DNA of 24,777 nucleotides, from the IMG/VR virus record IMGVR_UViG_3300013286_000552, positions 1 through 24,777 of that record; one strand, written 5' to 3'. Below are positions 6,789 to 24,777 of this stretch, piece after piece (within the stretch, counting starts at the first letter, position 1; each line of letters starts with the position of its first letter). The notes under the pieces were generated by a model. It had not been told where the DNA came from. It did no database searches and saw only the letters and a list, made by a program, of their open reading frames with translations. A program made the position numbers and the translations under genes. This DNA comes from a virus.

Positions 6789-7389
6789 CAGGAAGAACAT
6801 CGTCTGGCCATTTGATATATTCATTAAATGCCTTTTCTCTTAGCAATCTCATGTCTAATGCATTTCCTACCATTAGTTTTCTTACCATTGCGCCTCGCTC
6901 GTCATTAAACAGCGGCATATACATCTCCATTGCCATTGGTAGCTCCATATATCTCGAAGTCGAAAAATGCCCAAATGCTTTAAGTTGTTTGTTGTTGTCA
7001 ATAAAGAAACACTTAGGATACATTGACACTTTACAAATATTTTCGTTATGTAAGTCAATACACATCTGTTCTAATTGCTGTTTCCAATCTGGACAGTAAT
7101 CCTCTAATTTTTCACCCCTATCCAGTATTTCCTGGCACAATGTTCCATCGAAGTGTAGGAATATTTTAAATCCGTCTCTTGTATCGTCAGCGAACTCGGC
7201 GCACCAAGGATACTTGGCAATTGGAGATGAAATATCTACAAGATTTACATCTCGAATGAAACAACTTCTCATCAGCATCATTCCGTATTTTTCTTTATTT
7301 TCGTATGCTTGACAAAGAAACTTATTGTCTGTACTTTTATAAAGACTATACACTCCCTGTTCAACAGGAATCCAATTTTCACTCATCAT
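6760..7389 (-). CDS. Kinase-fold protein lacking catalytic Asp (pseudokinase-like)
   Basis: The 209-aa protein shows a degenerate protein-kinase C-lobe: LHNENICKVSMYPKCFFID at 113-131, which lines up with the catalytic loop of kinases (H-x-x-x-I-x-H-x-D-L-x-P-x-N). The catalytic Asp is Ser122 and the DFG-like Asp is missing (AFGHF at 138-142). The same motif with the same losses occurs in the protein at 8229-8906, so the two are homologues. It starts at tandem ATGs; I keep the first, one base after the stop of the upstream 2OG-oxygenase-like gene, so the two form an operon. Related small proteins are, as far as I recall, common and unannotated in marine T4-like phages. Role unknown; a binding or scaffold function is possible. 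Confidence 0.65.
   Translation of the reverse strand: MMSENWIPVEQGVYSLYKSTDNKFLCQAYENKEKYGMMLMRSCFIRDVNLVDISSPIAKYPWCAEFADDTRDGFKIFLHFDGTLCQEILDRGEKLEDYCPDWKQQLEQMCIDLHNENICKVSMYPKCFFIDNNKQLKAFGHFSTSRYMELPMAMEMYMPLFNDERGAMVRKLMVGNALDMRLLREKAFNEYIKWPDDVLPAIYDRVYRS
6761..6783. terminator. Hairpin in a tail-to-tail overlap (possible bidirectional terminator)
   Basis: TATGATCGA and TCGATCATA form a perfect 9-bp stem with a 5-base loop, inside the 29-base overlap of two convergent genes. No T-run follows on either strand, so factor-independent termination is not certain. Confidence 0.35.
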
Positions 7390-7390
7390 A

Positions 7391-8194
7391 TTAATAACGC
7401 TCCAAATGATCGATACCTAATTTTTTACGAAACTCTTCCGTGAACTTTCCGTCAATGCGCAGGCTATAACTTTGTTCCATAATTTGCTCACCACCGTGCC
7501 AATCGACATCATTCCACCAAGCCGCACGGGTGTTTAAGTAGGTCTTGTCTTTAGTTTCTGGATCCCACAGGTAGAAAGCTTTTTTAGTGTTAGGGCGAAT
7601 ATGTATAAACTCATTGCGGTGTGGCGCAACAACATCGATGCCATTCTTTGCATCTAAGTCTCTGTGTTCAAACGGTATACCGTCAGCTTCGCAGTGAAAG
7701 AATATCACGCGGCCTATGTGCTCAAATACTCCTAGAGTAATAAAATCTTCAACCCATTTTACAACATTAGGGAAGTATTGGGCCTCTTCGGTAAGTTTGC
7801 GCGGCGCTGTTCTATCGTCCCACGATCCTTCTTCCCATAAGAAATAATATATGTAAGGATCATACGCCCCCATAGCCATTTTTAAATATCGTGTAAACTT
7901 GTTACGCTGTTTATAGTTTTTGAAATCTTTAAACAAATCAATACCGCCAAGATAAACAGGATCATTTTTTGGTAATTCCATAAACTCTTCCATAGCTTGA
8001 TATATAGGTTTCCAATGTAGTTGGTAACTCATAGCGTCAAAACTAAATCCTGGCTTCATCCATGTACCTTCTTTAGCGTACTCACGTGCCTCTGCAAAAC
8101 CACGAATAATTTCTGGTTGTAGTTGATCGAATTCATCCATATTGATATATGGAGTCATGTCGATATAGGGTTGGTTGTTAATTCCTTTTATCAT
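7391..8194 (-). CDS. Putative 2OG-Fe(II) oxygenase, cupin-like
   Basis: The 267-aa protein has an apparent non-haem iron triad in its C-terminal half: FEHRDLD (His177, Asp179), DVDWHGG (His233), then YSLRIDG with Arg246 for 2OG. The spacing fits an Asp/Asn beta-hydroxylase-like double-stranded beta-helix. The N-terminal 150 residues are rich in aromatic residues and not recognised. It starts at ATG 8194 with no clear ribosome binding site and is the first gene of a two-gene minus-strand operon with the pseudokinase-like gene. It is divergent from a second pseudokinase-like gene across a 34-base gap holding a 16-bp palindrome. An oxygenase flanked by two kinase-fold paralogues may act with them, which is inference. 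Confidence 0.62.
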   Translation of the reverse strand: MIKGINNQPYIDMTPYINMDEFDQLQPEIIRGFAEAREYAKEGTWMKPGFSFDAMSYQLHWKPIYQAMEEFMELPKNDPVYLGGIDLFKDFKNYKQRNKFTRYLKMAMGAYDPYIYYFLWEEGSWDDRTAPRKLTEEAQYFPNVVKWVEDFITLGVFEHIGRVIFFHCEADGIPFEHRDLDAKNGIDVVAPHRNEFIHIRPNTKKAFYLWDPETKDKTYLNTRAAWWNDVDWHGGEQIMEQSYSLRIDGKFTEEFRKKLGIDHLERY

Positions 8195-8208
8195 GGGGTA
8201 CCATTCTG

Positions 8209-8214
8209 TATAAT
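8209..8214 (+). promoter_or_regulatory. Candidate -10 box (TATAAT)
   Basis: An exact TATAAT lies 14 bases before the ATG at 8229 and overlaps the palindrome at 8212-8227. No convincing -35 box is seen at 17-base spacing. If used, the leader would be only a few bases. Confidence 0.35.
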
Positions 8215-8227
8215 GATAATTATCATT
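8212..8227. promoter_or_regulatory. 16-bp perfect palindrome, Fur-box-like operator candidate
   Basis: AATGATAATTATCATT is its own reverse complement. Together with the three bases before it, it matches 15 of 19 positions of the classical Fur consensus GATAATGATAATCATTATC. It occupies half of the 34-base gap between two divergent genes and ends one base before the ATG at 8229, so a bound protein would block expression. The sequence is AT-rich, so chance resemblance to Fur sites is possible; the palindrome itself is exact. Confidence 0.5.
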
Positions 8228-8228
8228 T

Positions 8229-8906
8229 ATGCAATATGAATACTATTATAATAGGCTCAGCGGAGAACAGTGGCGTAATAATCTAATTTATACCAGTTTG
8301 ATGTCTGCTGACCAATCAGTCTTCGTGCAATGGTATAACAATGACACAGAATACCATAAAGGACAGAATCAAGTAGTGGATCCTGCTGTGATGGAAGAAA
8401 AGTGGAATAGAGAAGTAAAATACCTTTCACTAATGCGTGGTGCATATCCTAGCCTTGTTCCGCAATTATTAGATATAGACTATAAAAACAAAAAGATTTA
8501 CCTTAAAGTTGATGGCCCTGATTTTTGGCAAAGAAGCCTAAGTGGTAATTGTACGTTTGATCAAGTGTTGCCCAACTGGCAAGATCAAATGCTCAACATT
8601 ATCCAAGCCCATAAACATCTAGGACTGCACAAATACAGCATGCATCCTAGCAGTTATTTTCTAGTAGATGGCCAATTAAAAAGTATAAACTACTTTTTCA
8701 CATACAGCAAAGACGAGCCTAATGTTAGTATAGCGGATGTAGAAAGTCATATCTATTCGTCTCGTCAAGATGAAATGCGTAAACATTTAGAAACTTTGGG
8801 GATTGATTGGAATACACCGCAATCGTGGAATACAATGGATAGACTATGCTGGGAAAGTTTTAGAACTAACTATCCTGCGGACTTTATTGAAAAATGTATA
8901 AACTGA
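8229..8906 (+). CDS. Kinase-fold protein lacking catalytic Asp (pseudokinase-like)
   Basis: The 225-aa protein is a homologue of the one at 6760-7389 but retains more of the kinase shape: a strand at VFVQWY (31-36), a helix-C-like EVKYLSLMRG (62-71), and a hinge-like IYLKVDGPDFW (90-100). The catalytic-loop equivalent is AHKHLGLHKYSMHPSSYFLV at 127-146, where the Asp of H-x-D is Ser137 and the Asn/Asp metal ligands are absent (INYFF follows at 153-157). Phosphotransfer is therefore unlikely by the known mechanism. It starts at ATG 8229 directly behind the palindrome and overlaps the next gene by 13 bases, in a three-gene plus-strand operon with the GNAT-like and radical SAM genes. Confidence 0.65.
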   Translation: MQYEYYYNRLSGEQWRNNLIYTSLMSADQSVFVQWYNNDTEYHKGQNQVVDPAVMEEKWNREVKYLSLMRGAYPSLVPQLLDIDYKNKKIYLKVDGPDFWQRSLSGNCTFDQVLPNWQDQMLNIIQAHKHLGLHKYSMHPSSYFLVDGQLKSINYFFTYSKDEPNVSIADVESHIYSSRQDEMRKHLETLGIDWNTPQSWNTMDRLCWESFRTNYPADFIEKCIN

Positions 8907-9436
8907 TACCGTGGTCTGAAGATTTAGACCTAACAGACTTTTATGCAGAAGCTGAACGAAGAGGGTTTACCAATAACTCTAGTCAAAAGGCAATGGTGGA
9001 CTGCTTTCGTAACGAGCGTGAGTGGTGCGTGTGGATTCTTTACTACAACAATACAGCCGTAGGCAGCGTAGGCGCACATTCACTAGACGATGGCGGATAT
9101 CGAATCTGTGCAAGAACTTGTGCATTTACAGACATGATGCCATTACATCACTTGCGTACTAGAGAAGGCATTACATCACACCAAAATGTAACAGCACAGT
9201 TTTTCATACCTCAATGTATTGAATGGGTAGGCAATCATGATATGTATATCACAACACATCCAAGCGAAGTGGGAACACAGCGATTAGTACATACAGTATG
9301 GGGCCCAGCATTAGAACTAACAGGATGTTTAACATTAACATCTAACAAGTTCTACAGGGGGCATACTCAGACTTTTTGGCGCTTAAATAAAGATGTATTC
9401 TTAGAACAATTATCAAAGGGTCCTAGATGGCATTAA
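8894..9436 (+). CDS. GNAT-like N-acyltransferase candidate
   Basis: The 180-aa protein has a GNAT-like layout: an N-terminal helix region (DLTDFYAEAERRGF at 12-25), then strands WCVWILYYNNTAVGSVGAHS (44-63) and a C-terminal section with FYRGHTQTFWRL. No clear acetyl-CoA pyrophosphate loop (Q/R-x-x-G-x-G/A) is visible, so the assignment rests on overall shape and on similarity, as I recall it, to unannotated proteins of marine T4-like phages. It sits between the pseudokinase and radical SAM genes with 13- and 10-base overlaps, which implies co-translation. If it is an acyltransferase, the acceptor is unknown. Confidence 0.5.
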   Translation: MYKLIPWSEDLDLTDFYAEAERRGFTNNSSQKAMVDCFRNEREWCVWILYYNNTAVGSVGAHSLDDGGYRICARTCAFTDMMPLHHLRTREGITSHQNVTAQFFIPQCIEWVGNHDMYITTHPSEVGTQRLVHTVWGPALELTGCLTLTSNKFYRGHTQTFWRLNKDVFLEQLSKGPRWH

Positions 9437-10509
9437 CATTATCTCTATGCGAGCATTGCTATAGACACGCACCAGCTGAGAAATTTGTGCGTGATGGCTC
9501 TGTTTGGATGCGTAAAACTTGTACAGAACATGGCAAATCTGAATATATGATTGAGCGCGATGCAGAGTTTTACCATAGCTTAGAATTCGATCCGTACGGG
9601 TATGATGTTCCTAGCGGCATCATGATTGAAGTTACTGATCGTTGCAATCTCAAATGTCCGCATTGCTATCACGAGCCAGAAAGTGCATCAACTGATAAAC
9701 CGTTGGGACTTATACTACAGCAAATAGAAAGTTGGCCTGATGATGCAGGTAGTGTGATACTTGCTGGCGCAGAACCAACACTACGTAAAGACTTACCAGA
9801 ACTTATAAGAAACATTCGTCATGTACAAGAGCATCTTAATAGAACACAGCAAGATATTACAATTTTAACCAACGGTGTCAAACTTGCTGATAAACAATGG
9901 GTTGCTGACATAGCCAAAGCAGGATGCCGTGCAGTAATGATAGGGCTTAATCATCAATCATACCAAGGCGAAACTGTGCATCGTAAGCAATTAGAGGGGA
10001 TTGAAAATTGTAAAGATGCTGGTATCTATGTATACTATGTTGGCTACACATTAGAAGATTTTAATCATATTCCTGATGTGTTAGATGAAATACAGTTGCT
10101 AGGCAATAGCGCAGGACAGTATAGAGTGCGTGCCGGAAGCGATATCGGTCGCAATCCTAATGAGCCAAGATACTTTCTAAGCGATCATGTCAAGGCTATT
10201 AAAGCATACGTAGACAGCAAAGGTTGGACTTGGGAAAAGATTCCTGCTGATGATAACTTATATCACTATATGGTTAAGATCAACGGCATTGTACATAGGC
10301 TAATACAATGGAGTGATCCTAAGACTATTGACATGGAAGAACTACGTTGCGGTCCGTGGTGCGACTTTGTGCCCAACAAGCCCATAACAAACTTCTTACA
10401 TCAAATCATGTTGCGTGATGCGGCAGTTAATAAAGGAATGAACTTGTGGGATACCGTACCAGAACGCTATCAGTTTCGAAGTAGAGAAGCAATGAGGCTA
10501 GACCCTTAA
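9427..10509 (+). CDS. Radical SAM enzyme with N-terminal Cys knuckle (MJ0619/Tes-like)
   Basis: The 360-aa protein begins with a small metal-binding knuckle: CEHC at 8-11 and CTEHG at 32-36. This is followed by a radical SAM core with CxxxCxxC at Cys73, Cys77 and Cys80 (TDRCNLKCPHC) and GAEPT at 114-118 in place of GGEPT. The N-terminal C-x2-C...C-x2-H-G knuckle is characteristic of radical SAM proteins of the MJ0619/tetraether-lipid-synthase type, many of which act on lipids or other hydrophobic carbons. Two more Cys (308, 312) near the C-terminus could bind a cluster or metal. It starts at ATG 9427 behind AAAGGG, 10 bases inside the GNAT-like gene. It converges on speD with a 4-base overlap. 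The reaction is unknown. Confidence 0.83.
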   Translation: MALTLSLCEHCYRHAPAEKFVRDGSVWMRKTCTEHGKSEYMIERDAEFYHSLEFDPYGYDVPSGIMIEVTDRCNLKCPHCYHEPESASTDKPLGLILQQIESWPDDAGSVILAGAEPTLRKDLPELIRNIRHVQEHLNRTQQDITILTNGVKLADKQWVADIAKAGCRAVMIGLNHQSYQGETVHRKQLEGIENCKDAGIYVYYVGYTLEDFNHIPDVLDEIQLLGNSAGQYRVRAGSDIGRNPNEPRYFLSDHVKAIKAYVDSKGWTWEKIPADDNLYHYMVKINGIVHRLIQWSDPKTIDMEELRCGPWCDFVPNKPITNFLHQIMLRDAAVNKGMNLWDTVPERYQFRSREAMRLDP

Positions 10510-10856
10510 GCCTGTCGCTCTAGAAAAGTTTCTTTAATAGATGCTGGATTAAAGTATTTCTTAACCAATTCAACAACTATGTCTTTATCGAAAGATTTAC
10601 AACTAAAAAGATCAATATAACCTTCCCTGGTCGCACTAACAAAATGTGCAGTGATGTTACTGGTTTGTATCATTTGCATCATGCTGAATCCTGCGTTAGG
10701 TGTCTTGGGCAACAGATATTCAATCCTAGGCCCGTCAACTGCCTGCATGCCTATGCGGGGAATCAGCTCAACAACAAATTTCTCAATCACTATATCATTA
10801 TCGATGCTTTGATTGCATCCTGAGCAATCAAGTAATAAATGGTAACCCCAAGTCAT
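10506..10856 (-). CDS. speD: S-adenosylmethionine decarboxylase-like protein
   Basis: The 116-aa protein resembles SpeD, the pyruvoyl enzyme that cleaves itself and decarboxylates SAM for spermidine synthesis. Seen: GYHLLLDCSGC at 4-14, then TSNITAHF at 65-72 and IDLFSCKSFD at 81-90. The pyruvoyl-forming Ser66, processing His71 and catalytic Cys86 are in their usual places, but the normal ESH around the serine reads TSN. SpeD genes occur in marine T4-like phages, so the divergent motif may be a lineage form. The length fits bacterial class-1 SpeD (110-130 aa). It is preceded by AAAGGAT and its ATG overlaps the SGNH hydrolase stop as ATGA. Besides polyamines, decarboxylating SAM could compete with the many SAM-using enzymes nearby (inference). 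Confidence 0.8.
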   Translation of the reverse strand: MTWGYHLLLDCSGCNQSIDNDIVIEKFVVELIPRIGMQAVDGPRIEYLLPKTPNAGFSMMQMIQTSNITAHFVSATREGYIDLFSCKSFDKDIVVELVKKYFNPASIKETFLERQA

Positions 10857-11539
10857 TGTATATCCTTTAAAATTAATTGCGCTAATGCTTCATGCGCATC
10901 TCTTCCGTAATGTAGGTAAGGCATCTTAGTAAAACCTTGTTCCTCTGCCCAGTCTTTATAATTAGTGTGTCCTTGAAAATCAAACCAATTATCAAAATTG
11001 CTTGCAGTATGATTGAGCATTAAGTGGTATACATCTTTGCATGACATATCAACTAATAAAGCTAGAGAATCTATGTCATTATGTGGATGTAAGAATTGCT
11101 TTACGTAAGTATCGTTAATAGGATTATGCAACTTAGTTACTTTGATATCTTTTTCTATTGGCCCGTACCATTGCATGCCTACTTGTAGATATTGGTCTTC
11201 ATCATGACCTAATAAGTTTTTACCAGGATAGTAAAATTCATTTCGATCAGAAGAAGTGTAACCAAACAATACAAGACTATTTGGATGGTCGTGCAATGCC
11301 TGTCCTAGTAATCGCATGCTACGTTGATTACTGCCACCTGTCATTGCATAGTTATAGTACGGCATCCCTAACGCTTTCGCAACAATAGCCGGAAACGCTA
11401 ACATTTTACCAGGAACATCAGCCGCCTCTAAAGAAATGTCTCCACGTAAGTACATATCATACGTGCTGTTGCTGGTTAATAATTCACACCCTGCAACATG
11501 GCTGTCACCAAATGCAAGTATAGACTCATAGTTTTTCAT
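10853..11539 (-). CDS. SGNH/GDSL-type hydrolase
   Basis: The 228-aa protein has the SGNH block I motif FGDSH at 10-14 with nucleophile Ser13, a block II-III-like MTGGSNQRS at 66-74 (oxyanion Gly and Asn71), and a C-terminal GRDAH at 212-216 supplying Asp214 and His216. Such enzymes are esterases or acyltransferases acting on acetylated sugars, lipids or peptides. No signal peptide is seen, so it acts inside the host cell or in the virion. It is the first gene of an operon with speD and divergent from the tandem radical SAM pair. The central 90 residues are not alignable by eye. Substrate unknown; de-acetylation of glycans would fit the region. Confidence 0.75.
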   Translation of the reverse strand: MKNYESILAFGDSHVAGCELLTSNSTYDMYLRGDISLEAADVPGKMLAFPAIVAKALGMPYYNYAMTGGSNQRSMRLLGQALHDHPNSLVLFGYTSSDRNEFYYPGKNLLGHDEDQYLQVGMQWYGPIEKDIKVTKLHNPINDTYVKQFLHPHNDIDSLALLVDMSCKDVYHLMLNHTASNFDNWFDFQGHTNYKDWAEEQGFTKMPYLHYGRDAHEALAQLILKDIQ

Positions 11540-11547
11540 TATGTATA

Positions 11548-11562
11548 TATTTAACTTAAATA
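11548..11562. promoter_or_regulatory. 15-base palindrome in a divergent promoter gap
   Basis: TATTTAACTTAAATA is a perfect 7-1-7 inverted repeat in the 27-base gap between the divergent SGNH hydrolase and radical SAM genes. It places a TTAAATA element upstream of each gene, similar to the late-promoter octamer with one or two mismatches. It may be an operator or a symmetric promoter pair. Confidence 0.35.
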
Positions 11563-11566
11563 CACT

Positions 11567-13174
11567 ATGTTCGATGTAATTCTATTTGCTGACGCTCCTT
11601 ACCCACATCATAAAATTAGAGGCTATGGCGTACATAGAATAGCCAGTCATATTCGTGCAAATGGTTACTCTTGTATTGTTATAGATTTTAGTTCTGCGTT
11701 AACCTTTGATTTATATAAAGAAATTATAGATCTTACAGTTGGCCCTAACACACTTATGGTAGGGTATTCTACTACATGGCTTCCTTATAGGTATCCAGAG
11801 ATTCCTGGTGAGTTTAGCAATCAGATCCCCGGGCATCATATTGGTGAGGAGTATGAGCTTTCTAATAACAAAGAAGATTTAAAAGACTGGAAAAAGAATA
11901 ATCTAGTTTTTAAATTTGGAATTAATGAAGTTGATGATTGGTTAAAATATCCAAAGTCAATCAACCCTAATTTGAAAACAGTATTAGGCGGAGCTAAGGC
12001 AGATTTCTATATGGACCTAGCAAATGTAGATCATGTGATATTTGGCATAGCAGAAACTATGACTATTGATCTATTAAATAAACTCAGTGGTAAGACTAAA
12101 CGTATTTTTAACAAATATATAGATCATGACCGCAAGGCACATGCCACGTCATGGGATTTTAGACAAAGTAAAACAACTTATACTGATTTAGATTTTCTGC
12201 AACCCCAAGAAAGTCTAGTATTAGAAGTAGGCAGAGGATGCAGATTTAAATGTGCATTTTGTAATTTTCCGTTAATTGGACAAAAGAATGTTAACGACTA
12301 TCTAAAACAGCCTAGTGTAATACGAGATGAACTATTAGAAAACTACGAGCGATGGGGTACTACCAAATACTTTATTGTAGATGATACTTTCAACGACAGC
12401 ACAGAAAAATTAGAGATGATGGTTAAGGTTATGAGAGATCTTCCATTTGATATTAAGTTTTGGTGTTATACTCGAATTGACTTATTAGCCGCCCATCCAG
12501 AACAAATTGAATTAATGAAAGAATTAGGTGTTGCTGAAACGTTCTTTGGCTTGGAAACATTTAACGATAAGAGTAGTAAGACTATTGGCAAAGGTATGCC
12601 CAACAGCCGACGCAAGGATACTTTGTATAAAGCAAAGGAAATATGGGGTGATCGTGTTTATATGGAAGGTGGCTTTATGATTGGCTTGCCTTACGAGACA
12701 CAGGCCAGCTGGAGACAAACTGTTGATTGGTTAAAAAGAGAAGACTGCCCGTTGGACATTAGCACTTGCTATCCTGTGAATATTATTAAAAAGACAGATC
12801 GCAACCAATGGTTTCCTACCAGCTGGTTTGATAACAACTATGAACAGTTTGGTTATTATTTCCCGCATGACGGAATAGAGGGTTTATTGACCTGGCACAA
12901 AGACGACGATACTGATATTAATACATTTGTTAAGGCACAAGAGATAGCAGATGCAACTACTAAAGAGTTAGCATCTTATCAACGTCCGCGGAAAGGGGAT
13001 TTTTATGCAAGCGCATTTAATCATGCCATATTAAAAGATAGAGAAGCAACGTTAAATATGACAGATCAAGAATACAATCAAATTGTACATAATATAGATT
13101 TTGATAATTTATTTTACGAATCTGCACATCAAGAATACTTTGGCTTGTTATTAAAAAAATTAAGAAATGTTTAA
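11567..13174 (+). CDS. B12-binding-like radical SAM protein, copy 1
   Basis: The 535-aa protein has an N-terminal cobalamin-binding-like Rossmann region (about 1-175), including RGYGVHRIASHIRANGYSC, a LMVGYSTTW strand, TVLGGAKAD at 138-146 and FGIAETMT at 159-166, followed by a radical SAM core with CxxxCxxC at Cys225, Cys229 and Cys232 (GRGCRFKCAFC). The DxHxxG motif that binds cobalamin base-off is absent, so B12 may bind differently or not at all. The C-terminal ~130 residues are specific to this pair. Known relatives methylate or rearrange unactivated carbon. It overlaps its paralogue by 8 bases. There is no ribosome binding site; a TTAAATA element lies 4 bases before the ATG. Family firm, reaction unknown. 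Confidence 0.85.
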   Translation: MFDVILFADAPYPHHKIRGYGVHRIASHIRANGYSCIVIDFSSALTFDLYKEIIDLTVGPNTLMVGYSTTWLPYRYPEIPGEFSNQIPGHHIGEEYELSNNKEDLKDWKKNNLVFKFGINEVDDWLKYPKSINPNLKTVLGGAKADFYMDLANVDHVIFGIAETMTIDLLNKLSGKTKRIFNKYIDHDRKAHATSWDFRQSKTTYTDLDFLQPQESLVLEVGRGCRFKCAFCNFPLIGQKNVNDYLKQPSVIRDELLENYERWGTTKYFIVDDTFNDSTEKLEMMVKVMRDLPFDIKFWCYTRIDLLAAHPEQIELMKELGVAETFFGLETFNDKSSKTIGKGMPNSRRKDTLYKAKEIWGDRVYMEGGFMIGLPYETQASWRQTVDWLKREDCPLDISTCYPVNIIKKTDRNQWFPTSWFDNNYEQFGYYFPHDGIEGLLTWHKDDDTDINTFVKAQEIADATTKELASYQRPRKGDFYASAFNHAILKDREATLNMTDQEYNQIVHNIDFDNLFYESAHQEYFGLLLKKLRNV

Positions 13175-14783
13175 TATAATACTATTCACAGATACCCCAG
13201 AGCCGTTGACCAAGACCAGAGGGTACGGCTGTCATAGACTGGCTTCACAGGTAAGAAGCGAAGGATACACTTGCTTGGTTGTAGATTTTATATCTGCAAT
13301 GGATTATAATATGTATAAAGAAATATTAAACCATGCAGTAGGGCCGGAAACTTACGTTGTGGGGTTTTCATCATCTTGGCTTCCTTATCTTATGCTGGAA
13401 GGAGAAGCCCCCCAAACTGCCGATCCTGGTAGAGAAGTTGACCAGCGTAGACGGGGTAGTGACGAAATACTGTTAAAAACTGATATAGAAGATCCGTTTG
13501 CTGGCTCATTAATGACTGCTTTTATTAACAAATATGCAGGACAGTGGTTTAACTATGTAAAAGAATTGAATCCCAAAACTAAAGTTGTGTTGGGCGGCAA
13601 TAAAATTGATTGGTACACAGATATAAAAGAAGTTGACCATTTTATGATAGGCTTGTCTGAAACTATGATGTTAGACTTACTTGATTCTCTCAGTAAAAAA
13701 GGACCAAGAAGAATTTTTAATAAAGTAATAGACCACGACACTCGTGCTAAATTACCTAGATGGGATTTTAGAGAAAGCTCTACGTCCTATACAGAATACG
13801 ATTTTATCAAACCTAACGAAACACTCAGTTTAGAATTATCACGTGGGTGTAGATACAAGTGTAGCTACTGTTCTTATCCTATGATTGGACAAAAGAACAT
13901 GGAAGATTATCTAAAGTATCCCCAAACTTTAAAAAAAGAGTTAATAGAAAATTATGAGCGTTGGGGTACAACACAGTATTATTTTATGGACGATACGTTT
14001 AACGATACTACTGAAAAGTTGCAGGCCTTCTTAGATGTTGTTAGCTCATTACCATTTAAGATCAGCTTCTGGTGTTATCTAAGATTAGATGTGTTAGCTG
14101 TGCATCCTGAACAGATATACATTTTAAAAGAGTTAGGTATTGGACAATGTTATATGGGCATAGAAACATTCCACCCTAAGGCAGGCAAAGCTATTGGAAA
14201 AGGTATGAGTGCTTCCCGTAGAAAACAAACTCTTAAATTGTGTCAAGAAGTATGGGGAGCAGATGTTAGTATACAGGCTGGATTTATGGTAGGACTGCCA
14301 CACGAGTCATCTGACTCTATATACGAAACTGCAAAATATCTTTCAGAGCCTGCTTGCCCTATAACACAAGGATGGGTATTTTCATTAAGCATAGTAGGTA
14401 ATCATGATCTATCTAAGTATGTGTACAAGAGCGAATTTGATACTAACCATGAAAAGTATGGTTATAAAATTCCCAACCCAGATAGATTCTGGGAATGGTA
14501 CAAAGACGATGAAACTGATATAACAAGTTGGAAAGTAGCAGAAGCTGTAAGCATGAAGGCACACGAAACAATAGTCAACAAAGATTATAAAGGAGATTTT
14601 TATAAATCGTCTCTAAAACATCCTGTGTTATCAAACAGACAGCTAACTATGTCAATGACAGATAAAGAATATAAAGATCTTATTAATTCCATTGATCAAT
14701 TTAAGCTGTATACAGATACAGTAATGGAAGATTATTTTAATCCGCTAATACAAAAACTAAAAAATGCCAATACCGTTAAATGA
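13167..14783 (+). CDS. B12-binding-like radical SAM protein, copy 2
   Basis: The 538-aa protein is a full-length paralogue of the preceding one. Shared blocks include ENYERWGTT, the RGCR(F/Y)KC cluster loop (Cys228, Cys232, Cys235), a DDTFND segment and KAIGKGM/KTIGKGM. It again has the RGYG...GY cobalamin-domain-like N-terminus without DxHxxG. It differs most at 75-125, where copy 2 carries a charged, arginine-rich insert (REVDQRRRG near 89-97), and near the C-terminus. Divergence across the whole length suggests an old duplication and different substrates rather than a recent copy. It overlaps copy 1 by 8 bases and the next radical SAM gene by 20, so the three are probably translated together. 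Confidence 0.85.
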   Translation: MFNIILFTDTPEPLTKTRGYGCHRLASQVRSEGYTCLVVDFISAMDYNMYKEILNHAVGPETYVVGFSSSWLPYLMLEGEAPQTADPGREVDQRRRGSDEILLKTDIEDPFAGSLMTAFINKYAGQWFNYVKELNPKTKVVLGGNKIDWYTDIKEVDHFMIGLSETMMLDLLDSLSKKGPRRIFNKVIDHDTRAKLPRWDFRESSTSYTEYDFIKPNETLSLELSRGCRYKCSYCSYPMIGQKNMEDYLKYPQTLKKELIENYERWGTTQYYFMDDTFNDTTEKLQAFLDVVSSLPFKISFWCYLRLDVLAVHPEQIYILKELGIGQCYMGIETFHPKAGKAIGKGMSASRRKQTLKLCQEVWGADVSIQAGFMVGLPHESSDSIYETAKYLSEPACPITQGWVFSLSIVGNHDLSKYVYKSEFDTNHEKYGYKIPNPDRFWEWYKDDETDITSWKVAEAVSMKAHETIVNKDYKGDFYKSSLKHPVLSNRQLTMSMTDKEYKDLINSIDQFKLYTDTVMEDYFNPLIQKLKNANTVK

Positions 14784-15717
14784 AATAAAGAATTTTGGAC
14801 AACAAACATTGTTAGATAATCCTAGATTTAACATAAGTTGGATACTAGGTAGATTTTGTAATTACAAATGTAGTTACTGTTGGCCGTATGCTCGTAGTGA
14901 TAAACTAGATTATCAAACACTAGAAGTATACAAATCCACAGTAGATGAAATAAAACGACAGGCTCGTGCTAATGGCTTTACCGAATTTCATTGGAGCTTC
15001 AGTGGTGGTGAGCCTACAGCCTACAAGCAATTGCCAGAACTAATCAAGCACTTAGATGAAAAAGAATCTGCATATCAAAGTGTGCATATGACTACTAATT
15101 TAAGTCCTGGAAGCAAATGGTGGAAGAGTTGGGCCGATTATACGAGTCTTTTACAGCGGCGTAGTATTACAGCCAGCTTCCATGCAGAGTTTGCCAAGGA
15201 GCAAGAGTTTGGTGATAAATGCTTACAGCTAATGTACGAACTTGTTCATGTAACAGTGAATCAAGTTATGGTACCACAGCATTTTTTTGACACCCTTGAA
15301 CGCTGTAACAGATTGCGCAGTAGGGGAATCAATGTAACACTAAAGCCACAAAGCAATGGTACTGCTACAGCCATTGTAGAAGGATATACTCCTGAGATGA
15401 TTAAAATTATGCAAGATGATTTTGAACAACAGGAGGGCTTTCAAATAAGATTAACTGATGGAATTAACAACTACTACATTGACCAAGCTGAAAGATTTAA
15501 CGCATTAGGATTTAATAAGTTCAATGGGTGGAATTGCTCTGCAGGATTTCAAGGACTTATTATTCGTGGAAATGAAGTAAAACGTGGGTACTCTTGTAAA
15601 GAAGAATCCCTCGGAACCTTAAAAAATTTTAATTTATTAAAACAACCAACAATCTGTGTTACTCCTTGCTGTGTAAGCTCTGCAGACAGCAAGATGCCCA
15701 AATACAAGAATGAATAA
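14764..15717 (+). CDS. Radical SAM enzyme with C-terminal twitch/SPASM-like Cys cluster
   Basis: The 317-aa protein has CxxxCxxC at Cys32, Cys36 and Cys39 (GRFCNYKCSYCWP) and a canonical FSGGEPT at 79-85. After the barrel come Cys258 (GWNCSAG), Cys278 (GYSC), Cys298 and the pair Cys302-303 (CVTPCC), an arrangement expected of a twitch or shortened SPASM domain holding an auxiliary 4Fe-4S cluster. Such enzymes often modify peptides or sugars. It is the third radical SAM gene of this operon, starting 20 bases inside the previous one. Its stop codon overlaps a late-promoter-like octamer that serves the next genes. The two unknown proteins downstream could be substrates or partners; that is inference. 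Confidence 0.83.
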   Translation: MPIPLNEIKNFGQQTLLDNPRFNISWILGRFCNYKCSYCWPYARSDKLDYQTLEVYKSTVDEIKRQARANGFTEFHWSFSGGEPTAYKQLPELIKHLDEKESAYQSVHMTTNLSPGSKWWKSWADYTSLLQRRSITASFHAEFAKEQEFGDKCLQLMYELVHVTVNQVMVPQHFFDTLERCNRLRSRGINVTLKPQSNGTATAIVEGYTPEMIKIMQDDFEQQEGFQIRLTDGINNYYIDQAERFNALGFNKFNGWNCSAGFQGLIIRGNEVKRGYSCKEESLGTLKNFNLLKQPTICVTPCCVSSADSKMPKYKNE

Positions 15718-15720
15718 ATA
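15713..15720 (+). promoter_or_regulatory. T4-type late promoter candidate
   Basis: AATAAATA overlaps the stop codon of the radical SAM gene and lies 19 bases before the ATG at 15740. The predicted transcription start near 15726 leaves a 14-base leader containing CGGA. This is the best-placed late-promoter match in the window. Confidence 0.55.
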
Positions 15721-15739
15721 AACATAACACGGATCACTT

Positions 15740-16468
15740 ATGCTAGATATACTAAAAAACAAAATTCTATCCTGGACGCCCGAGAGCGCCGGTGCATTCT
15801 TTAGAGGAATTACTAGATACTCTGCTCTAGGCGGCCAAATTTGGGAACTTGCCCCAACTGGATATTATCTATGGTCTTCTGAATATGCAGGATATTTTGA
15901 TAACAACGGTAAAGTATGTGAATTGTTCATTAAAGATAGTGCTGAAGAATTGGCATTTAAACAAGCCTTAAGCAACCATGTCGATAACTCCAAATCAATT
16001 AAAGTTGAAAAACCCACGCTGATACAGTCAGGCGATATATTTGGATTAGATTTTACTTACACAGAACAACAACGCCCTTATGATTCTCAAGGAATTAACA
16101 TGGCAAATTTAATGTCTGTGCCAACAGATTTTGAAGATAATTACCTTCAACTATTACAGCAAATACTTCTATCATACGAGCAGTTAATAACGGCCATTGA
16201 CAATATGCAGGGTAACGAAGAGTCTAATAGATACCCTATGATGGTATACGACTCATACTTCATTGATCCTACTACACAATCTGCATTTTGGGCAGGACCT
16301 ATGCAATTTGTCAGTTCTAGAGAAGATTCTATTAAACATATACATGATTCGTTGCCTTATGTAGATAAACTTGTACAGCAAGTATATGGATATTCTAATG
16401 CCAGATCTATTCAAGCCGATTTAAATAATTTTATAAAAACACAATGTACAATACTTCAACTTCCTTAA
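15740..16468 (+). CDS. Unknown phage protein behind a late promoter
   Basis: I do not recognise this 242-aa protein. It has no Cys-rich motif, transmembrane segment or signal peptide. It is rich in aromatic residues at the N-terminus (SAGAFFRGITRYSALGGQIW at 16-35, then GYYLWSSEYAGYF) and turns helical and Gln-rich after 130 (NYLQLLQQILLSYEQL). The composition would suit a structural or assembly protein. It begins 22 bases after the radical SAM gene behind a late-promoter match and overlaps the next gene by 25 bases. These two form what looks like a separate late transcription unit ending in a hairpin at 17219-17243. Confidence 0.7.
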   Translation: MLDILKNKILSWTPESAGAFFRGITRYSALGGQIWELAPTGYYLWSSEYAGYFDNNGKVCELFIKDSAEELAFKQALSNHVDNSKSIKVEKPTLIQSGDIFGLDFTYTEQQRPYDSQGINMANLMSVPTDFEDNYLQLLQQILLSYEQLITAIDNMQGNEESNRYPMMVYDSYFIDPTTQSAFWAGPMQFVSSREDSIKHIHDSLPYVDKLVQQVYGYSNARSIQADLNNFIKTQCTILQLP

Positions 16469-17220
16469 TAGATTTCACAGTTCGAGAAAATGGGGCCCAG
16501 ATATTTGATGGGAAAGTCCCTTACAACCTCTTAAGTCATATAACTGAAATTTTAGGATTTTCCAAAAACGATAGAATGGTATCATATAATATTGATGGTA
16601 ACTTTTTTACTTTTTCAGGTCCCAACAGCGATGTTATTTCAGAAGGCACCACTGATCTGACTCATCCGTCTCTCCTAGCATATAGCGGAATACAAAACGC
16701 AAAAATATTAGAAGATCAATTCTTGCAAGATACAAATGCACTAGAACTTTCCCAACATCAATTAGATCAAGAAAAAATGGTCTTTGAATCTAACGAAGTT
16801 CAAAGATTGACAATAGAAGCGTTTAATAGTTTTAAGGAAATGTTAATTGAACAAAAGCAATTAACTGAAGAACAAGCCCAACTAAACTATGCAGAACAAT
16901 TAAGACAAGATGAAAACAGAATCGCACTGGTTAGAGGCATTGCATTAGATCCTATGAGTGCAGTATCTGCATTACAAACTGAATTTGGTCAAACAGGTGA
17001 TGTAAGAAGACAAATTGCCGCAGTTATGACTGCAAATATTGAAATTTCAAAATTAATAGCTTCCAGCGATCCAATGTATTGGATGTCTAGTTATGAAATT
17101 ATGGCAGTCCTAGGTTCTCAAAGTGCTGAAAATGGAAAATTAGCACAAATCCTAGCAGATCAATTGCCCGAGGATAGCAGTTTAAAAATGATACTAAAGT
17201 CTTTTGGCTGGGCTACGTAA
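16444..17220 (+). CDS. Unknown phage protein with central coiled coil
   Basis: The 258-aa protein is not recognised. Residues 1-75 look globular and beta-rich. About 85-160 form a long, highly charged helical stretch rich in Glu, Gln and Leu (for example LELSQHQLDQEKM, then MLIEQKQLTEEQAQLNYAEQL), a probable coiled coil. The C-terminal 90 residues are helical. There is no membrane segment or signal peptide. It starts 25 bases inside the previous gene, with no ribosome binding site, so coupling is likely. The late promoter upstream of the pair points to expression with virion genes, and the shape fits a structural, scaffold or chaperone role; this is inference. Confidence 0.7.
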   Translation: MYNTSTSLIDFTVRENGAQIFDGKVPYNLLSHITEILGFSKNDRMVSYNIDGNFFTFSGPNSDVISEGTTDLTHPSLLAYSGIQNAKILEDQFLQDTNALELSQHQLDQEKMVFESNEVQRLTIEAFNSFKEMLIEQKQLTEEQAQLNYAEQLRQDENRIALVRGIALDPMSAVSALQTEFGQTGDVRRQIAAVMTANIEISKLIASSDPMYWMSSYEIMAVLGSQSAENGKLAQILADQLPEDSSLKMILKSFGWAT

Positions 17221-18703
17221 ACACTTTAACATTATAAGTGTTTTGAAATTCTAACGCATCATCTATATCATTAATCATTGGCTTGCCTTTAACGTTCAAG
17301 CTGGTGTTTAACAACATAGGACAACCAGTCCGATCATACCATATTTCTAAGAGTTCTCTAAACTTGCTTCCGTCTTTTGGGACTGTTTGTACACGAGAAG
17401 TCCCGTCAGCATGAACGATAGCAGGAAATAAGTCAGGAACCCTACAGCGAGCCACGACTTGCATATACCTACTGTCACTCCAACCGCTAGGCATATCAAA
17501 GTAAGTGTCACATAGCTCCTCCAGGATTGCTGGAGCAAATGGTCTAAATTGCTGTCGTTGTTTAATTGCATTTACTTTCTCCTTAATGTCTTTGCCACGT
17601 GGGTCAGCTAACAAACTTCTATTACCCAATGCACGTGGACCAAACTCTGATTTACCTCTAGCAACACCGCATATCTGGTGTTTTTCTAAATAGGATGCTA
17701 TTTCGTAGTTGTTTGCATTTCCACGCATCTCGTGTCCAAGAAATGGAGTGAACTCGTAAGGTTGCATTCGCCAATGGGGTTTTAGTGCATACACAGCACC
17801 AATAGCACTACCGCTATCACCTGGCGCTGGCATGATCCATGTTTTATCAAAATACTTGCCAGTTAGTTTATTTCCTACACAGTTAAGAGCGCATCCGCCC
17901 ATAAGCACTAGATTACAACTTGGTACTAACTGTACAGCCTGTTGTAGGAGACGTTCAAACACTACTTCATAAACCGCTTGAGTCGCCGCCGCAATGTCAA
18001 ACAAGTCTTGCTCTGTAGTAAGTTCAGGCGCCCATAACGGGCATCCTCGATGTAAGTTTTCTTTCAAACGGAATATATGGTTCCAGTCATCGTTAGGAAA
18101 ACTAAAGAAATCCAATAGAACTCTATTAAAATGTTTCTTTGGATCTCCGTATGCCGCCATTCCCATTAGGATATATTCTTCTTCGTTTGGCTTTAGTCCG
18201 CATCGTTGGGTCATTGCACTATACCAAAGTCCTAGACTGTTTGGGTAGTCTAAATTGTACTGTTTAGTTAAAGTACCGCCTTCGCCTTTCCAAATAGTAA
18301 GAGTTTCGTATTCGCCTATTGCATCTATTACAATTACGCAGGCGTGATCAAAACCGCTGGTACAATAGCCGCCAGCCGCATGGCTCTTGTGATGACTTAC
18401 ATACTTTATAGGAGTACTTGGCAAGTATCCTCTTAAGTATTGTTTAATATTGTTTTCTTGATAGCGCCAGCCTTGTCCTGCTTGCAATTGTCTAACAGTT
18501 TTTAACAAAGGCTTCTCATACCAAACTATACGGTCGGGAGTAAGGTTGCGGTCGTTTAAGTAATAGATTAAATCTTTATCAAGATCTGGATCGTTTTTGA
18601 TTCCACTCCAGCGTTCTGTTTCTGAAGCAAATATTAAATGTTCGTCAGCAAACACAGCAACTGCCGCATTGTGACTATTGGCTGATATTCCCCAGGTTAT
18701 CAT
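17213..18703 (-). CDS. Carbamoyltransferase, TobZ/NodU/HypF-C type
   Basis: The 496-aa protein matches O-carbamoyltransferases of the TobZ/NodU family, which make carbamoyl-adenylate from carbamoyl phosphate and ATP and pass the carbamoyl group to a hydroxyl. Seen: the ASKHA-fold start MITWGISANSHNAAVAVF, VSHHKSHAAGGY with metal-binding His104, His105 and His108, Asp127, MGGCALN at 268-274, GKSEFGPRALGNRS at 350-363, RPFAPAI at 387-393 and LLNTSLNVKGKPM at 464-476. It is shorter than the 550-600 aa cellular forms, as phage versions often are. It starts at ATG 18703 and overlaps a convergent gene by 8 bases. Next to glycosyltransferases, a sugar acceptor is likely. A viral member of this family has been reported to carbamoylate 5-hydroxymethylcytosine, so DNA is an alternative. 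Confidence 0.92.
   Translation of the reverse strand: MITWGISANSHNAAVAVFADEHLIFASETERWSGIKNDPDLDKDLIYYLNDRNLTPDRIVWYEKPLLKTVRQLQAGQGWRYQENNIKQYLRGYLPSTPIKYVSHHKSHAAGGYCTSGFDHACVIVIDAIGEYETLTIWKGEGGTLTKQYNLDYPNSLGLWYSAMTQRCGLKPNEEEYILMGMAAYGDPKKHFNRVLLDFFSFPNDDWNHIFRLKENLHRGCPLWAPELTTEQDLFDIAAATQAVYEVVFERLLQQAVQLVPSCNLVLMGGCALNCVGNKLTGKYFDKTWIMPAPGDSGSAIGAVYALKPHWRMQPYEFTPFLGHEMRGNANNYEIASYLEKHQICGVARGKSEFGPRALGNRSLLADPRGKDIKEKVNAIKQRQQFRPFAPAILEELCDTYFDMPSGWSDSRYMQVVARCRVPDLFPAIVHADGTSRVQTVPKDGSKFRELLEIWYDRTGCPMLLNTSLNVKGKPMINDIDDALEFQNTYNVKVFT
17219..17243 (+). terminator. Hairpin terminator candidate
   Basis: AAACACTT and AAGTGTTT form an 8-bp stem with a 9-base loop directly after the plus-strand TAA at 17218, ending in TTTT. 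The stem is AT-rich and the T-run short, so strength is uncertain. It also lies within the end of the opposing carbamoyltransferase gene. Confidence 0.42.
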
Positions 18704-21701: not shown

Positions 21702-22503
21702 ATAGAGAACCCAGTGAGTCTATTTTTTCCAACAACTCTATTTTGTTCATCATATGAATGTCTTGCCCAGCAGTCCTAACTAATATGTTTTGATCGCCTG
21801 CTACCCAAGTTAATCCGTTCTTGGTTATTTTTACCAGTGAATCTCTGTCATTAAACAAAATTGGACTAGGGAGTGCTATATAATATTTTTCAGCGCCAAA
21901 TCCTCCCATGATATGACATGCAACAGTAAATGCATAGTCGTTGCGAAATCTTCTAGTGTCAAACTGATAAAGTGTTCCGTACCATATCCAATTTTCTCTG
22001 ATATGGTCCACTAAGTCAAAAAGAATTTTGTTTTCGGGAGTTTTATTGAATATGATATTTGTTGCCCACAGCATGTGAAGACTTTGCGGACTAAATGAAA
22101 AGTTACTCCCACCTCTATTAGGGCATAGATCTTTCATGCTTTCACATATCATGAAATCGTAGTCACTGTCTAAATAATCTTTTAAACGGTTGCTGAATAT
22201 TAAACAATCACTGTCAATTAGCAGAGTACGATCGTAGGGCGTGAGAGCGTAAATTTTATTCCTATTGATATTTTTAAATGCAATACTTTTTCCGCATAGG
22301 ACTCGAGAGTTATCGCTATCATCCCCTTCTGTGATAAACGTTTTATCGAAGATAGTGTGATCAATTTTATCTAAAGTAATGGAGTCTGTTATAAGACTGA
22401 CCGGTATGCCGAGATGCTTTTCCACTAGGCGTCCCGCAAGAACAGCTTGTGGGCCGTAGTCGATATCGCCATCAAAGGCAAATATACAACAACCTAGGTT
22501 CAT
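21694..22503 (-). CDS. Glycosyltransferase-like protein (IDSD), copy 1
   Basis: The 269-aa protein begins with a GT-A first strand (MNLGCCIFAFDGDIDYGPQA), with IPVSLITDS at 33-41, and has the DxD at 97-99 within ALTPYDRTLLIDSDCLIFSN. Later segments LWATNIIFNK and FRNDYAFTVACHIMGG resemble the acceptor side of phage glycosyltransferase-like proteins. It is a paralogue of the gene after it. Its ATG overlaps the stop of the 113-aa phage protein as ATGA, behind GGTGG, so it follows the structural genes in one operon. Position directly downstream of a tail protein suggests a virion target (inference). Confidence 0.7.
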   Translation of the reverse strand: MNLGCCIFAFDGDIDYGPQAVLAGRLVEKHLGIPVSLITDSITLDKIDHTIFDKTFITEGDDSDNSRVLCGKSIAFKNINRNKIYALTPYDRTLLIDSDCLIFSNRLKDYLDSDYDFMICESMKDLCPNRGGSNFSFSPQSLHMLWATNIIFNKTPENKILFDLVDHIRENWIWYGTLYQFDTRRFRNDYAFTVACHIMGGFGAEKYYIALPSPILFNDRDSLVKITKNGLTWVAGDQNILVRTAGQDIHMMNKIELLEKIDSLGSLYD

Positions 22504-22841
22504 AGGTCCACCAATTTTGCCGCAGTTCTTTTTTGCCTAATCTCGTTATAGTCTGTTAGATATCTATTAGTGACTTCAAAGTATGTTCCAATTACTCGTG
22601 CTCGGAAATCTTCTAAGTTTTCAATTTCAACTGGATAACCATTGTCATCTAGGATAACAGCAGATTCATATTCTTTGATAGAATTAACGAATCCGATCAA
22701 GGTTCGATCAACAGTAAATATGCCACCGCAGTATCCTATAACAAGTTCTGCATGTGCTTTGTCTTTTAATCTTTGTCTTTCGATTCCTAGCGTTTGTCTA
22801 TAATCAGCATGCGCCAGTGCTTTAACTAATCTGTCGTCCAT
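22500..22841 (-). CDS. Conserved marine T4-like phage protein, function unknown
   Basis: The 113-aa protein has an N-terminal YRQTLGIERQRLKDKAH segment, then LVIGYCGGIFTVDRTLIGFV, an LDDNGYPVEI turn and a C-terminal helix ending KLVDL. I recognise this organisation from small unannotated proteins near tail and structural genes of T4-like cyanophages and pelagiphages, so it is useful as a lineage marker. It is probably a small structural or assembly protein. It starts at ATG 22841 behind AAAGGTT, 13 bases after the tail protein stop, and is translationally coupled to the first glycosyltransferase-like gene by an ATGA overlap. Confidence 0.75.
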   Translation of the reverse strand: MDDRLVKALAHADYRQTLGIERQRLKDKAHAELVIGYCGGIFTVDRTLIGFVNSIKEYESAVILDDNGYPVEIENLEDFRARVIGTYFEVTNRYLTDYNEIRQKRTAAKLVDL

Positions 22842-22854
22842 TTCAACCTTTTAA

Positions 22855-24777
22855 TTAGAATGACGGTTGTATTCCTGGATAGCTTGGAGCATTATATCTA
22901 GTGCCGTCCAAGTAATTATACACATGAGTCTGGCCTATGGGTTGAATATTGAAGGGATATGTAAGCGTCTGCCCTAACCCAAGATTGCCGCTCGAAACAA
23001 TGTTAGAACCACCCGCGCCGACATACTGATTCTGGATCGCACTAACTACGAAGATAGATTTTGCCTGAAATAAATCAGCATTGTCTAAGCCTACCCACAT
23101 AACAAAGTAACTGCTGGTATAATTTGCATCTGCTTCGAAGACTTTTGCCGTTGGAGTTATAACTTGGTTTATTGGATCTGGATTTACCAGCATGTTTCCA
23201 CCGTATACTCCACCAGTCTGTCCTATTGTTGCAGGATATGCTCCGCCTTGATTAAATTGAGTAAAGGAATTTCTAGTAAGTCTAAAAGATCCTAAACTAC
23301 TAAGGAGGTCTGCCCATCCTTGACTAATTGGATTTTGAATAGTTGGCACAAAACTAAAATTCCATGTTATGTATCCGCCTGCATTCCAAAAACTTCTAAA
23401 ATCCGCATTGTTGGCAAATTCAACTTGGTAACCAAATCCGTGTGCCTGTGAAAAGGAAATATTCCCGCCGTGTGCTGTCCATGAACTTGAAGTGAGCCTA
23501 GACGAAGATGCTGTATTTCTATTTGTATAGGTATAGTCAACAGCCGCGCTCAATCCATTATAGTCGGATTGTGTAACTAGATATTTTGATGTTACTGGTA
23601 CTCTAGATGTAGGTTGATATCGCGTATTAGCAATTTGTTGATAGCATTTATCAACATCTTGTGCAATTTGATCATACTCAATACCAGTTATCTTATCGTT
23701 AGTGTTTACTATACTACTTGTGTAACTTTGATTCCATCCTAGGTCAACTGTACTATTGTTAGGCGTTCCTAAAACTGCGGTTACCTTGCCTTGTAAAAGA
23801 TTCCAATCATTATGATTAACAGCATTAGTTGAGCCAGATACTGGCGCAGATTGAATAGATAACGTAAAAGTTCCAACCGCGGTATTACTTGTTGCATCTG
23901 TACCTGTAACAGTATATGTAGTAGTTTGTAAAGCACCTGTAGGAGTTCCGGTTATGGCACCATTAGCAGTATTGAAATTTAAACCTGTCGGAAGACTTGG
24001 ACTGATACTGTAAGTTATAATCCCCGCACCGCCTACAAATGCCACCGGAGTAAATGAGCCCACTGACGTTCCGGCGGTAGCTTGTTTTGTAGGAATAGCA
24101 ACTGTAGCAGTTATAGTATTAACTAAGAGTGCTACCGTTTCTGCAATAGTCGAAATGGCACTGGTTAAATTGTGACTAGGATTCGCAGTATTAGCCGCCG
24201 CCCAATCTCCTCCCTCGTCTAGTTTAATATATGTAACTCGATTATTTCCCAACTCTGATTGTAATGTATTGATAAAATTATCAGTAAGGGCTGGAGGAAC
24301 CAGGGTGTCATTGATGTTATTAACAAAAATAAATTTGACATTGGAATTTTTTACAGCATTACGCCATAAGCCCGGACTTGCTTGTGATCCATAATTGTAT
24401 CTAGGCGAAGCCGCTTGCAATGCGGTGCTGTTGCCTGTACTATTTACATAGCTATTGACAATGAATTTTGCAGTCTCAGTAACTGTAGCATCGTTTAAGG
24501 TAACATAATCTAGATCCATTGGACCTACTACAGGACAGATAGCGGTAATTGGCCCTTGTCCGTAGTCGTAAATGTATTTCATACCAGCATAGGCTACAAG
24601 ATGTCCGCCTGCACTTTCTCCAGAAATTATCAGCCCATACGTGCTGGTTCTAGCTGAAATCGTATTCCATAATGCGCTATAAGCGGACCCAGCACCGGTT
24701 ACTGTGCAGAATCTTATAATGGTCTCAATGTCATCTGCTGCCGCAGGATGGTAGTTTGCCGTACTACCCGGTGACGG
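22855..24777 (-). CDS. Tail/structural protein with inserted alpha/beta-hydrolase domain (5' end missing)
   Basis: This gene is open to the window edge, so its start lies beyond 24777; the 640 visible residues are numbered from the edge. Residues ~9-225 look like a carboxylesterase-type alpha/beta hydrolase: GESAGGHL at 53-60 with nucleophile Ser55, FVNNINDTLVPP at 151-162 with Asp157, and PSHNLT with His202. Residues ~225-310 form an Ig-like He_PIG domain (SPSLPTGLNFNTANGAITGTP). From ~320 on, the sequence matches a C-terminal domain seen in structural proteins of marine T4-like phages, including FRSFWNAGGYITWNFSF. The whole therefore reads as a tail fibre or virion surface protein with its own esterase, perhaps removing acyl groups from host polysaccharide. 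A Met at 24582 is not the start: it would cut off the nucleophile. Confidence 0.82.
   Translation of the reverse strand, partial: PSPGSTANYHPAAADDIETIIRFCTVTGAGSAYSALWNTISARTSTYGLIISGESAGGHLVAYAGMKYIYDYGQGPITAICPVVGPMDLDYVTLNDATVTETAKFIVNSYVNSTGNSTALQAASPRYNYGSQASPGLWRNAVKNSNVKFIFVNNINDTLVPPALTDNFINTLQSELGNNRVTYIKLDEGGDWAAANTANPSHNLTSAISTIAETVALLVNTITATVAIPTKQATAGTSVGSFTPVAFVGGAGIITYSISPSLPTGLNFNTANGAITGTPTGALQTTTYTVTGTDATSNTAVGTFTLSIQSAPVSGSTNAVNHNDWNLLQGKVTAVLGTPNNSTVDLGWNQSYTSSIVNTNDKITGIEYDQIAQDVDKCYQQIANTRYQPTSRVPVTSKYLVTQSDYNGLSAAVDYTYTNRNTASSSRLTSSSWTAHGGNISFSQAHGFGYQVEFANNADFRSFWNAGGYITWNFSFVPTIQNPISQGWADLLSSLGSFRLTRNSFTQFNQGGAYPATIGQTGGVYGGNMLVNPDPINQVITPTAKVFEADANYTSSYFVMWVGLDNADLFQAKSIFVVSAIQNQYVGAGGSNIVSSGNLGLGQTLTYPFNIQPIGQTHVYNYLDGTRYNAPSYPGIQPSF

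Follow-up and report, generated by a model that had tools for sequence, protein, structure and literature searches.

The stretch of DNA analyzed here (the window) is a viral record taken at its full length of 24,777 bases. Up to its last base runs a minus-strand frame of 640 codons (22855..24777), which an ORF check found to be open to the end of the record. Together with the gene that follows it, this frame comprises the following features, all on the minus strand:

22855..24777, minus strand: 3' part of a predicted protease-esterase fusion gene (last 640 codons and stop), aligned via the near copy L002 to residues 802-1441 of its relative in contig L004
24124..24777, minus strand: C-terminal ~218 residues of a predicted BD-FAE-like alpha/beta-hydrolase (from Pfam on L004, AlphaFold, and PDB matches)
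24613..24615, minus strand: codon of the predicted catalytic Ser55 in a GESAGG nucleophile elbow, kept in all phage copies
24580..24582, minus strand: codon of Met66, internal to the gene although it is the earliest ATG in the fragment; complete relatives start ~800 codons upstream
24307..24309, minus strand: codon of the predicted catalytic Asp157 (NINDTLVP), kept in all phage copies
24172..24174, minus strand: codon of the predicted catalytic His202 (PSHNL), kept in all phage copies
23854..24105, minus strand: He_PIG Ig-like domain, fragment residues 225-308 (Pfam PF05345, E 1.6e-9, above cut-off)
22858..23847, minus strand: C-terminal domain of ~330 residues, with paralogs encoded by the two genes that immediately precede the fusion in relatives
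22500..22841, minus strand: 113-aa gene directly downstream of the fusion, syntenic in L004, L010, L011, L123, and L130

The upstream part is represented by relatives of this gene, and the missing 5' part, placed by the alignment of window residue 1 to L004 residue 802 (through the near copy L002), amounts to ~801 codons past the record end. The initial annotation had warned that a gene call from the Met at 24582 would lose the catalytic serine, and that ATG (residue 66) indeed lies downstream of Ser55. Its description of the enzyme as hidden by a false start needs amending, in that the cause is truncation of the contig, with the ATG of the relatives ~800 codons upstream; a hidden start codon was likewise ruled out, as the gene leaves the record. 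The frame is not a chance one, because other contigs contain a fragmentary near copy (L002, 94% identical) and further relatives at 81-89% identity (L003-L006), and because the esterase part is under purifying selection (pN/pS, 0.12-0.53). This ratio stays below 0.6 for every domain and pair compared, the close pairs being the better guide, since synonymous sites are near saturation at larger distances.

Searches of IMG/VR recovered the esterase in fifteen contigs, the window included. Ten of these carry the complete gene, encoding eight distinct proteins of 1,441-1,462 aa from the chosen ATG; the cut copies are those of L002, L003, L006, L031, and the window. In L004 the chosen start lies nine codons past the preceding in-frame stop and has an AGGA motif shortly before the ATG. 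The complete protein is composed, in order, of a propeptide-like start, an S8 protease, an Ig-like region, a BD-FAE-type alpha/beta-hydrolase, He_PIG, and a 330-aa C-terminal domain, with the Pfam matches in L004 placed as follows:

L004 residues 144-502: subtilisin-like S8 protease domain (E 1e-20)
L004 residues 739-963: BD-FAE domain (E 1.2e-11)
L004 residues 1026-1109: He_PIG domain (E 1.5e-12)

The strand-rich region between the two enzymes appears Ig-like by eye and was modeled by AlphaFold with partly low confidence. The domains keep one frame in every copy. No copy that spans them has lost a catalytic residue of either enzyme, even at identities as low as 46%: the esterase of L123 is 46% identical to that of L004, and both L123 and L130 retain the S8 Asp/His/Asn/Ser and the esterase Ser/Asp/His. 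That an assembly artefact had joined two genes, a hazard raised in the initial annotation and one to which the window's ending inside the gene might have pointed, is vanishingly improbable and already refuted by the same architecture in ten complete-gene contigs, along with partial copies, with conserved flanking genes. The fusion is present in other phages, and the proposed architecture stands as far as an esterase-type alpha/beta-hydrolase fused to an Ig-like and further domains is concerned; the S8 protease, in the N-terminal 540 residues, had been missed.

The BD-FAE profile (PF20434) scores 17.7 bits on the fragment alone, below the Pfam gathering cut-off of 26.8 bits, which the full-length relatives pass with 35.0-54.0 bits (L004, 45.0; L005, L010, and L011, 42.9-54.0; L123 and L130, 35.0-36.8). 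BD-FAE and Abhydrolase_3 are the only Pfam hydrolase matches, and no SGNH/GDSL domain is among them. The Ser-Asp-His triad and an HGG oxyanion turn occur in canonical BD-FAE order, the turn (HGGGW) falling in the missing part of the window gene and reading HGGGF in L130. The triad residues are exactly those singled out initially from the nucleophile elbow and the candidate Asp and His. When aligned with bacterial esterases, the Ser55 column is S in 53 of 54 rows, the His202 column is H in all 54, and the Asp157 column is D in 45, where it coincides in most bacterial relatives with the Asp of HGDKDPLVP.

An AlphaFold model of L004 region 545-1112, computed with 53 phage and bacterial relatives (mean pLDDT, 81.8; pTM, 0.83), predicts that the esterase part is a canonical alpha/beta-hydrolase fold, most of which is modeled with high confidence. 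The catalytic serine occupies a strand-elbow-helix between strand 306-311 and helix 313-329, the Asp follows strand 405-411, and the His precedes helix 465-477, in a loop modeled with low confidence (block pLDDT, 56). The best PDB fold matches (E 1e-13 to 1e-11) are to lipases and to feruloyl or carbohydrate esterases: Lip_vut4 (6nkf), the feruloyl esterase 4zrs, and 6tkx/6xyc; the last pair, listed in the PDB as a carbohydrate esterase from gut microbiota, we take to be the BD-FAE structures. The assignment to a BD-FAE or carboxylesterase fold offered in the initial annotation thus agrees with both profile and predicted structure. The nearest bacterial sequences found (23-34% identity) belong to BD-FAE-like enzymes, for the most part of Planctomycetes and Verrucomicrobia, and no credible relative of the esterase was recovered among 50,697 phage records. 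A Staphylococcus phage match was rejected as spurious (E 0.6), and a viral contig with a 34% match (L034) was set aside as encoding a stand-alone secreted-type esterase, perhaps on bacterial DNA.

On profile and motif evidence, the N-terminal 540 residues of the complete protein are a predicted subtilisin-like protease. In the relatives (the window itself lacks the S8 part), the Subtilase S8 profile (PF00082) scores 74.7 bits against a cut-off of 21.8, the phrog_9158 profile matches with E values of 1.2e-89 on L011 and 4.1e-80 on L123, and the catalytic motifs VDGHADP, HG[ST]HV, NSW, and GTS are kept in the copies spanning them. The ~140 residues ahead of S8 resemble a subtilase propeptide by eye (VIVHRIED...THYMMTEAEAELLKQDPRV). 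The best S8 matches, 39-41% identical, are cyanophage proteins annotated as "subtilisin-like serine protease" or "peptidase," whose genes are flanked by baseplate, tail-pin, or tail-fibre genes: S-H38 and S-CREM1 have theirs within a run of baseplate genes, and that of P-SSM2 adjoins a putative proximal tail fibre. The family occurs in at least 372 IMG/VR stretches; of the 72 examined, nearly all stop shortly past S8, and an esterase was seen in L130 only. The phages with the fusion also carry a separate stand-alone S8 gene adjoining fibre-like genes. In a tree, the fused S8 domains group in a single clade (100/99), apart from the stand-alone copies in these phages, and a recent in-genome duplication of the stand-alone gene was dismissed as unsupported, given these separate and strongly supported clades.

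A protease in this position might also serve virion maturation rather than act on the host, cleaving either its own chain or adjacent proteins of the assembling virion and freeing the esterase-Ig-C-terminal part. The propeptide-like start and the position of stand-alone homologs in baseplate or fibre clusters are in keeping with such processing, as are the free-standing paralogs of the C-terminal domain next door. We nevertheless regard it as unlikely, given that Pfam recovers no Inhibitor_I9 propeptide match at E<=0.1 and that every copy holds its domains in a single frame.

Downstream of the esterase, the He_PIG match (fragment residues 225-308) accords with the Ig-like domain recognized at the outset. 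The C-terminal domain, then taken for a marine T4-like structural C-terminus, fared differently: no described relative of it was found in Pfam, PHROGs, or the phage records (tblastn), and its model (pLDDT, 84) has no PDB fold match. Its relatives are, instead, two tandem paralogous genes of ~300 aa directly upstream of the fusion (L004:1570-3369, L010:1567-3354, and L011:1564-3369), to which it is 25-32% identical. A further relative forms the N terminus of a 1,193-aa repeat-rich protein (L159:1407-4988) that has no match in the phage records and whose gene lies 12 bases upstream of an S8 gene, which links the C-terminal domain of the fusion to large S8-associated proteins. This domain may anchor or assemble the fusion protein. 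The T4 capsid protein gp23 (PF07068) had no match in the contigs and likewise none in the controls.

The gene order around the fusion is conserved in L004, L010, L011, L123/L132, and L130, and the window agrees with its downstream part: an IscA-like gene, the two ~300-aa paralogs of the C-terminal domain, the fusion, the 113-aa gene, a ~268-aa gene with a weak DUF5672 match, and a ~287-aa gene. The 113-aa gene adjoins the fusion in every relative inspected, and the gene directly before the cassette is an IscA/Fe-S_biosyn homolog (PF01521, E 8e-14). Genes for a Trp halogenase and a carbamoyltransferase lie further from the fusion. No baseplate or tail-fibre cluster was found at the fusion, which sits between the IscA-like and DUF5672-like genes; the word "tail" in the initial description is weakened because no recognized tail cluster surrounds the gene and because its neighbours are metabolic genes (IscA-like, Trp halogenase, carbamoyltransferase, and DUF5672-like).

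As a separate observation, the window carries a dense metabolic cargo (1051-3851 on the minus strand and 5718-18703) for a 25-kb phage fragment, namely, a class-III aminotransferase, a tryptophan halogenase, five radical SAM genes (one with a weak B12-binding match), and a Nol-like carbamoyltransferase. Contig L017 (G001:1-20000) similarly has, near the fusion gene, small IscU-like (by eye) and IscA-like genes and a second tryptophan halogenase (13140-16936). The photosystem gene family PF00124, sought as a sign of a cyanophage host, had no match in seven contigs, all of them fragments and hence uninformative on this point.

A neighbourhood so rich in metabolic genes would suit a hydrolase working inside the cell in phage-directed metabolism rather than in adsorption, for instance, by deacylating a metabolite produced through the halogenase, radical SAM, and carbamoyltransferase genes nearby. 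We consider this quite unlikely, since the Ig-like domains, the baseplate- or fibre-cluster location of the S8 family, and the sharing of the C-terminal domain with a repeat-rich protein fit a virion protein better.

The reading that we prefer, to which we assign a probability of roughly 0.55, is that of a virion-borne protease and esterase acting on the host surface, with activity, location, and substrate alike predicted from sequence, model, and context. The ~1,450-residue protein would be carried by the virion, at the tail or close to it, a location suggested by the genomic placement of the S8 family in cyanophages, the Ig domains, and the want of an evident signal peptide on inspection of the sequence. 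There, the S8 protease would cleave proteins of the host surface or matrix. The esterase, as its BD-FAE family suggests, would deacylate surface polysaccharide (removing acetyl or feruloyl-like groups), and the two activities would let the tail reach a receptor or the membrane. More tentatively, we suggest that a single virion protein might bring two catalytic activities to bear, giving the phage one tail component able to get through the host's protein layer as well as its layer of acylated glycan. The separate stand-alone S8 encoded near fibre-like genes argues against a baseplate role for the fusion, as it could fill that role itself.

Receptor-binding proteins can lose catalysis yet keep binding, and by the same route both folds might have been kept for binding a glycan or protein, with catalysis lost or minor. 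An enzyme-derived binding protein of this kind is improbable here, as neither enzyme has lost any of its catalytic residues, even though the sequence around them has diverged to 46-57% identity. A surface-acting protease and esterase would be of interest because S8 proteases are common yet unexplained in cyanophage baseplate regions, and their fusion to an esterase is a testable hint that this widespread phage family works at the host surface. The fusion could also be a source of enzyme pairs with which to degrade acylated exopolysaccharide. It illustrates, besides, how entire domains, along with catalytic residues, can go unseen when a contig edge truncates a gene.

Depolymerases and deacetylases carried on phage tails are familiar. 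The tail fibre gp66 of Possum (PMC9569702) is an established case of O-polysaccharide deacetylation, and tailspike esterases have been described as SGNH hydrolases (PMC12115436); the proposed role of the fusion, as a particle-borne esterase stripping acyl groups from host polysaccharide, resembles theirs, whereas the fusion itself has a predicted GxSxG alpha/beta-hydrolase joined to a protease. BFVD also contains phage-encoded esterases with the alpha/beta-hydrolase fold (Siphoviridae sp. ctBLh2 and Arthrobacter phage Seahorse), but their likeness is one of fold only (12-16% identity), and their entries name no S8 domain. BD-FAE is a bifunctional feruloyl/acetyl-xylan esterase with the triad S128, D237, and H269 (PMC8165983); the phage domain resembles it in its Ser-Asp-His (L004 S856, D958, and H1003), its HGGG-type oxyanion turn, and its fold match to 6tkx/6xyc. 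However, BD-FAE comes from bacterial polysaccharide-utilisation loci, whereas the phage counterpart is the middle domain of a phage protein and a predicted esterase. The literature searched describes no phage protein with both protease and esterase activity; both enzyme families are known, and it is their pairing, and the presence of a BD-FAE-type esterase in such a phage protein, that we did not find in the collections and literature searched.

The protease part has its closest counterparts in the Kyanoviridae S8 proteins (phrog_9158; S-H38, S-CREM1, P-SSM2, and S-SCSM1), with which it shares the S8 domain, the ~140 residues that precede it, and the catalytic residues. Their genes lie in the baseplate/fibre region of those phages; most of the proteins are ~530-610 aa long and lack an esterase. 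S-SCSM1 PQC12_gp144 (1,411 aa), annotated in its record as a virion structural protein, comes from a phage whose virions were analyzed by mass spectrometry (PMC9602691). Like the fusion, it is a long protein that has S8 at its N terminus and further domains of a surface type; in this case the added domain is of the Laminin_G/ConA lectin type, not an esterase, and its S8 domain is only ~31% identical to that of the fusion. Among the stand-alone phage S8 proteins (L134-L206), a short conserved C-terminal RPxSGxxYPRxRIRR, absent from the fused copies, is very often present and is possibly an attachment peptide. Another S8 fusion variant is encoded at L206:1191-3542, where a glycine-rich domain (PF21722, E 8e-18) comes after S8.
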